Made by a program: the position numbers and the translations under genes. Below the pieces are notes generated by a model. The model saw only the letters and a program-made list of their open reading frames with translations. It made no database searches and was not told the DNA's origin. Below, one piece after another: positions 59,961 to 61,981 of a stretch of DNA of 64,000 nucleotides. This DNA comes from Porphyrobacter sp. GTDB lineage: Bacteria; Pseudomonadota; Alphaproteobacteria; Sphingomonadales; Sphingomonadaceae. Location of the stretch: assembly GCA_027531395.1 (NCBI GenBank), contig JAPZRO010000002.1, positions 62,001-126,000 of the forward strand, written 5' to 3'. Position 1 is the stretch's first letter. Every line of letters begins with the position of its first letter.

Positions 59961-60725
59961 ATGACACAGATTCAGGATTTTGAGGGGCGCTCGGCGCTCG
60001 TCACCGGCGCGGCTTCGGGGATCGGGGCGGCCTGCGCGAAGGCCTTGGCGGCACGCGGGGCGGCGCGGCTATGGCTGATCGATGTCGACAGCGCGGGTCT
60101 CGATGCGCTCGATCTGCCGCAGGGCACCGAAGTACACCGGATCACCGGCAGCGTGGCCGATGAGGGACTTTGGCAAGACATCGAGCGGTCGTTGGCAGGT
60201 CTTGACCATGCCGTTGTCAACGCCGGGATCGGCGCGGGCGGGCCGCTGGCCTCGCTGTCGCTGGCCGAATGGCGGCGGGTGATGGCGGTGAACCTCGACG
60301 GCGCCTTCCTGACGCTGGCGACCTCGCTGCGGGCGATGGGCGAGCGTGGCGGGAGCGCCGTTGTCGTTTCGTCGACCACCGGTCTCAAGCCCGTTCCCGG
60401 CATCGGCCCCTATGGCGTGTCCAAGGCGGCGGTCGCCCACATGGCCCGCATCGCCGCGGCGGAGAACGCGCGAGCCGGCATCCGCGTCAATGCGATTGCG
60501 CCGGGCGGGGTGGACACCGCGATCTGGGAGAGCGGCGAGGACTTCAAGACCTCGGTCGCCGCCATCGGCCGCGAGGCGACGATCCGGAAGATGGCCAAGA
60601 CGACGCCGCTGGGCCGCTTCGCCACCTCGGAGGAGATGGCGGACAGCATCCTCTACCTGCTGAGCGATGCCGCTTCCAACATTACCGGCCATGTGATGGT
60701 TTCGGACGGCGGATTTACCCTCTGA
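59961..60725 (+). CDS. short-chain dehydrogenase/reductase
   Basis: ALVTGAASGIGAACAKALA; HAVVNAGIGAGG; YGVSKAAVAHMARIAA; NITGHVMVSDGGFTL. Confidence 0.93.
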   Translation: MTQIQDFEGRSALVTGAASGIGAACAKALAARGAARLWLIDVDSAGLDALDLPQGTEVHRITGSVADEGLWQDIERSLAGLDHAVVNAGIGAGGPLASLSLAEWRRVMAVNLDGAFLTLATSLRAMGERGGSAVVVSSTTGLKPVPGIGPYGVSKAAVAHMARIAAAENARAGIRVNAIAPGGVDTAIWESGEDFKTSVAAIGREATIRKMAKTTPLGRFATSEEMADSILYLLSDAASNITGHVMVSDGGFTL

Positions 60726-60731
60726 TTTTCA

Positions 60732-60747
60732 AGGGGTAAATTCCGCC
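60732..60747. repeat. 16-mer AGGGGTAAATTCCGCC, copy 2
   Basis: Identical to 39372..39387; 19 bp before the parS-like palindrome. Confidence 0.9.
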
Positions 60748-60766
60748 AATCCAACATCGCCCAAAA

Positions 60767-60782
60767 TGTTTCACGTGAAACA
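60767..60782. promoter_or_regulatory. parS: parS-like centromere site (ParB binding palindrome)
   Basis: TGTTTCACGTGAAACA, exact match to the canonical 16-bp bacterial parS consensus, in a convergent intergenic gap. Confidence 0.9.
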
Positions 60783-60793
60783 TAGAGGGAACA

Positions 60794-61981
60794 TCACCAG
60801 CTGAAGGCCTGCTCCGCCAGCGTCGCGCTGGTGTTGCCCTTGAGCGTCATGGTGAGCCGCCGCGCCTTCCAGTCGATGTCGATCAGCCCGTAATTCTCCT
60901 CGGAGAAGAACTTGGTCACCCGCGCGGCATCGGGTTCGCGCGCGGTGCTGCGATCATTGTCGTTGCCGAAGGCGAGGTTCAACGAGGAGCTGGTCAGCTC
61001 CCACATGGTCTCACCGCCATGCTCGACCTTGTAGATGCCCGCAGCATGGCGATCGCCCGAGAGCAGCACCAGCCCGCTCGCCTCGCGGCCGGCCAGCACG
61101 TCGAGCAGCTTCGCGCGCTCGGCAGGGAAATTGGTCCAGCCTTCGAACTGGTGCGCCTGGGTGATCACCTGGGTCGAGGAGACCACGATCCGGAGATCCG
61201 CCGGCTTGGCGAGCTCGGCCTTGAGCCATGCCCATTGCTCAGCGCCCAGCACGGTCTTGGCCGGATTGTCGTCGGGCACATAGCCGCCCAGCGGCGGGCG
61301 GTCCTTGGTCCATTCGGCGCGCTTGAGGTCGGAGCGGAAGAAGCGCGTGTCGAGCAGGATCACCTGCACCCGCTTGCCTTCCGGGCCGGTGATCGAACTG
61401 TCATAGATTCCGTCGCGGGTGCGCACTGCATCGGAGGAGCCCCAGAAGGTCTCGAACAGCTCCTCGCCCCAGCGCCGCATCGGGAAGCTGCCGCCGGCGT
61501 CGTTGAGGCCGAAATCATGATCGTCCCAGGTCGCCATCATCGGGAACTTCGCTCGGAAACCGGCGAATTCGGGGTGCGAGGCCTGCAAGGCATAGGCGCT
61601 GCGCAGGCTCTCCAGCCCGGCATCGGCGTCCCAGCCGGCATCGCCATAGACATTGTCGCCGATCATCAGGAACAGCTGGGGCTGTTGCGCCGCGATCTGC
61701 GCCCACATGTGCTGCGAGGCGTTCTGGTGGTTGCAGCTGCCGAAGGCGATGCGGGTGAGCGTGGTCGCCGGGGAGAGCGCCGGATTCGGCCCGGCCTCGG
61801 GCATCACCACCTTTTTGCGCAGCTCGGCATAGTAGGGCGCGAGCAGCTGGTCGGGCGTCAGGCTGACGCTGACCGGGGTCTCCCCCGTCGCGGCGTGCCC
61901 GGAATGATTGTCAGCCAGCAGCGGCGCGGCGGCGAGACCGGCGGCGGCAAGGGCGGTAGCGGCGAGCAGCGAGCGGCGCAT
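60794..61981 (-). CDS. alkaline phosphatase D family protein
   Basis: RIAFGSCNHQNASQHMWAQIAAQQPQLFLMIGDNVYGD; MMATWDDHDFGLNDAGGSFP; VLLSGDRHAAGIYKV. Confidence 0.92.
   Translation of the reverse strand: MRRSLLAATALAAAGLAAAPLLADNHSGHAATGETPVSVSLTPDQLLAPYYAELRKKVVMPEAGPNPALSPATTLTRIAFGSCNHQNASQHMWAQIAAQQPQLFLMIGDNVYGDAGWDADAGLESLRSAYALQASHPEFAGFRAKFPMMATWDDHDFGLNDAGGSFPMRRWGEELFETFWGSSDAVRTRDGIYDSSITGPEGKRVQVILLDTRFFRSDLKRAEWTKDRPPLGGYVPDDNPAKTVLGAEQWAWLKAELAKPADLRIVVSSTQVITQAHQFEGWTNFPAERAKLLDVLAGREASGLVLLSGDRHAAGIYKVEHGGETMWELTSSSLNLAFGNDNDRSTAREPDAARVTKFFSEENYGLIDIDWKARRLTMTLKGNTSATLAEQAFSW

Follow-up and report, generated by a model that had tools for sequence, protein, structure and literature searches.

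A perfect parS palindrome away from parAB as a probable member of a chromosome-wide set of ParB sites in one Erythrobacter clade

The window, i.e. the whole stretch of 64,000 nucleotides that was analysed (C16:62001-126000 of a Porphyrobacter sp. genome of 3.196 Mb in 19 contigs), contains a perfect 16-bp parS palindrome and raises the question why such a site should be found in a region that encodes neither ParA nor ParB. Known chromosomal parS sets comprise one to about 20-23 sites and are located near the origin (PMC7333895). The original prediction described a single perfect copy, situated in a short gap on which an SDR gene and a phosphatase gene converge and away from any parA or parB, and all of this was borne out. 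The exact match is present (Table 1), and it is the sole match in the window even if up to three mismatches are allowed (mean of 0.09 in shuffled sequences). The domain matches confirm both flanking genes and their orientation, and the ParB_N and ParA/MipZ-family matches of the genome lie on other contigs. Genes were called with a codon model that was built for this purpose and checked on a few known genes. Within the gap, an intrinsic terminator, a promoter and an Rfam family were all searched for and none was found.

Table 1. Coordinates of the parS site in the window and its neighbours, with the loci that carry 11-bp arrays
Feature	Position or locus	Strand	Basis
SDR-family oxidoreductase gene	59961..60725	+	gene call; Pfam PF13561 (1.5e-48), also PF00106
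Convergent gap of 68 bp, contains parS	60726..60793	.	gene calls on either side
parS palindrome TGTTTCACGTGAAACA	60767..60782	.	perfect 16-bp match; array-less class
PhoD-like phosphatase gene	60794..61981	-	gene call; PF09423 (9.5e-27); convergent with the SDR gene
Array-bearing loci	L018-L061 (G003); L188-L227 (G018); L002, L006, L013, L014 (own genome)		

The presence of parS had led to two proposals, namely that the window is origin-proximal or that the site is an outlying one. To place the site we used the relatives G003 and G018, which are both single-contig chromosomes (52 perfect copies and 55 sites, respectively); GC skew, calculated from 40 sampled 20-kb stretches in each of them, puts the origin by parAB in both and the terminus at about 2.65-2.70 Mb (G003) and 1.98-2.05 Mb (G018). 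On the arm that leads from the origin to the terminus, the orthologues of the window site are found at 0.64 (G003) and 0.645 (G018) of its length, which places them about 1.0-1.1 Mb away from parAB. Since the orthologous sites of two complete relatives lie about 64% along this arm, the window is not origin-proximal, and the first proposal is contradicted. This position was transferred by orthology because our own assembly is in contigs, and broadly conserved gene order is assumed. The second proposal was right: ten perfect copies of the own genome, including that of the window, are located away from parAB. Thus the site has the 16-bp parS consensus and lacks the usual origin-proximal position, which is however usual rather than absolute and does not disqualify it.

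In total, the own genome contains 15 perfect parS copies, while about 1e-4 are expected from base composition or Markov models and the reversed pattern, used as a control, occurs 0 times. Five one-mismatch copies and one two-mismatch copy are found in addition. Five perfect copies and one near copy crowd within 3.4 kb beside parA, parB, gidB and gidA on C17, so that a cognate ParB/ParA pair with canonical sites is present, and the ten distal copies are spread over C8, C11, C14, C15, C16 and C19. Only a single ParB_N protein is encoded, with ordinary ParB_N, HTH_ParB and ParB_C domains, and its closest named relatives are those of Erythrobacter sp. MSM4 (84%), E. oryzae (82%) and a Porphyrobacter MAG (81%), which would place the own genome in Erythrobacter as GTDB defines it. 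MipZ is encoded as well.

Across 389 Alphaproteobacteria, the number of perfect copies per genome is usually 0-3, with a mode of 2, and among 41 congeners it ranges from 0 to 52. Employing the degenerate pattern TGTTYCACGTGRAACA, 61 congeners fall cleanly into those with 1-5 and those with 8-69 sites. Named genomes of the expanded kind are MSM4 (11 perfect copies), E. oryzae (9) and Porphyrobacter LE19 (15); the Novosphingobium and Qipengyuania genomes that were searched gave 0-1 copies. In a ParB tree, all 22 expanded genomes included fall on one side of a branch with a support of 99/96, and the next relative, G031, has 3 sites. Most simply, the chromosome-wide set would have arisen once, in one Erythrobacter clade. 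Outside this clade, a distant alphaproteobacterium (G235; 1.8 Mb, 53% GC) carries 78 perfect parS copies over many contigs, with A/T-rich flanks (L278-L297), which is apparently an independent expansion. Other alphaproteobacterial outliers are G221 and G356, with 18 copies each, and G212 with 13, and a Bacillota MAG (JAMNXV010000192.1, L110) has 18 parS-like sites in a parB locus of 20.8 kb, of which those listed crowd just downstream of parB.

Three genomes were studied in detail: our own, G003, and G018, the latter through 38 of its 47 distal sites. In G003 and G018, parS sites are found around the entire chromosome. The distal sites are over-dispersed, with one pair less than 10 kb apart where 12.7 would be expected, and most of them are intergenic (39/45 in G003 and 33/38 in G018), although intergenic DNA makes up only 9-11% of positions. 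Convergent gaps hold 22 of the 39 intergenic distal sites of G003 (P 2e-8) and 20 of 32 in G018 (P 1e-8), against 17% expected, and 7 of the 10 distal sites of the own genome; divergent gaps are avoided in G003 and G018. This bias towards convergent gaps, together with the avoidance of promoters, is the opposite of a promoter-regulatory pattern.

The distal sites share with the parAB-proximal ones an outer AA...TT preference. In the own genome, G is found at flank position +7 in 17 of the 20 flanks of distal sites, far above G003 or G018. One of these sites (L004, C11:189386), about 5 kb from mipZ (C11:194608-195363), is embedded in a perfect 34-bp palindrome, TTCGCCAAATGTTTCACGTGAAACATTTGGCGAA. 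As a general part of the element such an extended palindrome was rejected: it is restricted to a minority of sites, and arm runs exceed those of shuffled sequences in G018, do so slightly in the own genome and do not in G003. The same holds for a GAACATC motif 7 bp after parS, which half of the own distal sites (5 of 10) have; next to the parS of the window this motif abuts the phoD stop codon, and it is lost where the neighbouring gene differs.

Towards the terminus the picture is mixed. No perfect parS lies within about 190 kb of the terminus in G003 (P ~0.003), whereas no clear exclusion was found when the same gap was looked for in G018, and the pooled thinning of sites towards the terminus is weak (P 0.034). 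A consistent terminus exclusion was consequently rejected. In several terminus-side elements the centre of parS is weakened (TGTTTCATGTGAAACA, TGTTTCACATGAAACA) or half-parS pairs are found (G003: L062 at 2,555,623, L065 at 2,793,255 and L068 at 19,279; G018: L216/L219 at 2.060/2.315 Mb). It is possible that parS strength is graded downward towards the terminus, the sample being small.

The positions of the sites are conserved. Twenty-one G003 sites are orthologous to G018 sites, often with the same distance between gene end and site to within a few bp, while simple arithmetic (45 distal sites, 5-kb reach, 3.09 Mb) gives a chance expectation of about 3, and 8 of the 10 own distal sites are common to G003 and/or G018. 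At one locus (L015/L019/L222), all three genomes have a parS at the identical base, where it overlaps a conserved gene, Ada-like as judged by eye, at its 5' end. The site of the window lies 41 bp past the SDR stop codon in the own genome as in G018, and 40 bp past it in G003, and a parS at the 3' end of the SDR gene was seen in about a dozen further relatives as well. Since the gene beyond parS, opposite the SDR gene, differs in G036, G035 and G012, the site travels with the SDR gene. Those genomes of the normal clade in which the SDR gap was read have no parS at that place. Neither the window site nor its two orthologues carry an 11-bp array (see below), and the site is thus a member of a conserved array-less class.

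Nearly all G018 sites read TGTTCCACGTGGAACA, including 7 of the 8 parAB-proximal ones. Because both groups were respelled together, one factor would most simply read distal and parAB-proximal sites alike, and this shared reader would most simply be ParB. The original prediction had named many randomly scattered perfect copies as an outcome that would speak against it; many copies were indeed found, but they are conserved, spaced, biased to convergent gaps and jointly respelled rather than scattered at random. In its DNA-binding domain, ParB of G018 carries GMTQ and NMHRL, the other expanded genomes carry GMIQ (variants GLIQ and GMLQ) and NMMRL (NVMRL in G462), and normal genomes have mostly GMTQ and N-x-QRL. 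If compared with Caulobacter ParB (chain 6t1f), the differing G018 positions correspond to the residue before Q162 and to position 180, near which known contact or specificity positions are found (PMC7383237). This apparent link between the ParB change and the respelling is correlative, as it concerns one event in one lineage.

Most distal sites have a second component. Exact 11-bp periodicity was detected in 17 of 28 gaps with a distal parS in G003, compared to 2 of 306 parS-less gaps, and in 23 of 30 in G018, compared to 4 of 285; lags of 9, 10, 12 and 13 were checked in the gaps of both genomes and gave nothing comparable. The arrays consist of about 3-5 units on one side of parS only and point outward, with outward to inward unit counts of 17:2, 188:20 and 119:6. 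The unit reads CAATGANNNNN in the own genome; G003 has GGGGTCTG-like and G018 has GGGGTCTA-like units. Despite this lineage-specific unit, presence or absence of the array is concordant in 30 of 33 orthologous comparisons, and its side in all 21. With respect to transcription, arrays of tandem gaps are found upstream of parS about as often as downstream of it (7:4 and 5:5), so that their orientation follows parS and not transcription. Eight periodic gaps had been counted as parS-less: two in G003 contain a weakened parS (TGTTTCATGTGAAACA, TGTTTCACATGAAACA), two in G018 contain half-parS pairs, in one a true parS sits at the edge of the gap, and the other three lack any parS-like sequence. A Rho/rut reading of the arrays was rejected as a general explanation, since their orientation tracks parS and not transcription, and a G-quadruplex reading was rejected as well, as the arrays of the own genome lack G-runs.

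Both halves of the element were respelled genome-wide between lineages (parS from TTC to TCC; the unit as GGGGTCTA, GGGGTCTG or CAATGA), which would imply co-evolving readers. One might tentatively envision a chromosome-wide, bipartite, centromere-like system, in which each array-bearing distal element combines parS with some 3-5 helically phased 11-bp repeats that lie on one side of it and point outward. These repeats would be read by a second protein, which would determine in which direction or how far ParB slides or SMC is loaded; we consider this somewhat short of an even chance. A literature search that covered few subscription papers and no preprints gave no account of multiple parS sites in Erythrobacter, nor of 11-bp arrays linked to parS, and such an array is apparently unreported.

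Taken together, the 16-mer of the window is probably (we estimate about 0.77) a functional ParB nucleation site and one of a chromosome-wide parS set read by the single ParB of the cell. Among other readings, the one with the lowest probability takes the sites for a dispersed repeat, selfish or neutral, whose copies contain parS by chance. The adjacent 11-bp array common to many copies would fit to this. However, there is no common flank beyond the 16-20 bp core and the array, neither further shared sequence nor terminal repeats were found, array-bearing sites share only the polar array and array-less sites nothing more; moreover, positions are kept between species, genes, promoters and other sites are avoided, and the respelling proceeded in step with the parAB-proximal sites. 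It is very improbable, too, that the palindrome acts in RNA, as terminator or 3'-end hairpin of convergent gaps. Such gaps are favoured and the 20-mers can fold (-5.9 and -8.3 kcal/mol), but no GC-rich stem followed by a T run is present, and the terminator scan and Rfam gave no match. In addition, the parAB cluster, partly within genes, has the same spelling and underwent the same respelling, a hairpin does not need the exact 16-mer, and the balanced placement of arrays in tandem gaps (7:4, 5:5) argues against a transcript-bound role. Improbable as well is a DNA-binding protein other than ParB as reader of the distal sites. While these often adjoin an array, which is presumably read by a protein of its own, the G018 respelling is common to distal and parAB-proximal sites, and only one ParB_N protein is encoded in the own genome.

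A different question is what ParB would do at these sites, and here a role like that of Noc deserves consideration, since it is compatible with ParB as reader. Noc is a ParB paralogue that reads the NBS, a sequence whose positions 1 and 6 deviate from parS (PMC7383237). By analogy, distal sites might carry ParB-MipZ, a division inhibitor, over the nucleoid and permit a Z-ring only where sites are missing, at the terminus or mid-cell. The own genome encodes MipZ, ectopic parS disturbs MipZ foci in Caulobacter, and number and spread of the sites resemble the ~70 NBSs of B. subtilis, none of which is at the terminus (PMC4331003). Furthermore, G003 is free of perfect sites for ~190 kb around ter (P ~0.003), and two parS-like sites in the sampled ter stretches have the weakened centre TGTTTCATGTGAAACA. 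In contrast, G018 has no clear ter exclusion, the pooled thinning is weak (P 0.034), the parS bases are kept at both positions at which NBS differs, and no second, Noc-like ParB is found in the own genome. We thus regard this role as a second choice that is rather unlikely. The likeliest use, though itself a tentative one, is distributed loading of SMC (condensin) or local organisation of the nucleoid; a ParB reservoir or some other function is doubtful.

If the distal sites are read by ParB, it would bind each of them, load as a CTP clamp and slide for a few kb. Both arms would then carry many small ParB islands in addition to the main centromere near parAB, and because convergent gaps are preferred and promoters avoided, transcription would be disturbed less. 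At the arrays, a second DNA-binding protein might give each element a direction and perhaps a one-sided limit to sliding, which is the least certain step. Findings in other bacteria speak against such a set. Caulobacter tolerates a second parS cluster well only up to ~500 kb away from the native one, and parS in mid-arm (+1000 kb) is clearly harmful there (PMC5815017), P. aeruginosa has a 650-kb parS competence zone (PMC5098823), and strong parS sites that were moved apart in B. subtilis lead to SMC collisions (PMC8357415). Consequently, some fifty dispersed strong sites should be costly unless the activity of ParB or SMC is altered.

The set resembles several known systems, yet is distinct from each. 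With the chromosomal ParABS of Caulobacter, Bacillus and Pseudomonas it shares the identical 16-bp site and canonical ParB, ParA and gid genes at the main cluster, but it comprises up to 69 sites chromosome-wide, one-sided 11-bp arrays at most distal sites and, in one lineage, a whole-genome respelling. Like Noc/NBS of Firmicutes it has tens of parS-like palindromes around the chromosome, yet these are true parS sites with a single ParB, and terminus exclusion is not consistent (seen in G003, not in G018). ParB of P. aeruginosa also occupies sites chromosome-wide, namely hundreds of 7-bp half-sites with peaks of up to 0.6 kb (PMC7022226), whereas here full 16-bp palindromes are found at conserved positions. 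The 11-bp direct repeats in a centromere context are reminiscent of the plasmid centromere parC/ParR of R1, which is a resemblance only (PMC9426499); the arrays described here are chromosomal, joined to parS, one-sided and polar.

According to the textbook rule, parS sites cluster around the origin, and the distal set is at odds with it. Reviews ask why the sites cluster there and why their number varies (PMC7333895). A natural clade with up to dozens of full-consensus sites beside close relatives with about three offers a direct test of what restricts parS. The 11-bp arrays suggest that ParB has an unrecognised partner. The same comparison may reveal how ParB and SMC traffic copes with many loading sites, and in what way some fifty targets and the protein that binds them shift their specificity together.
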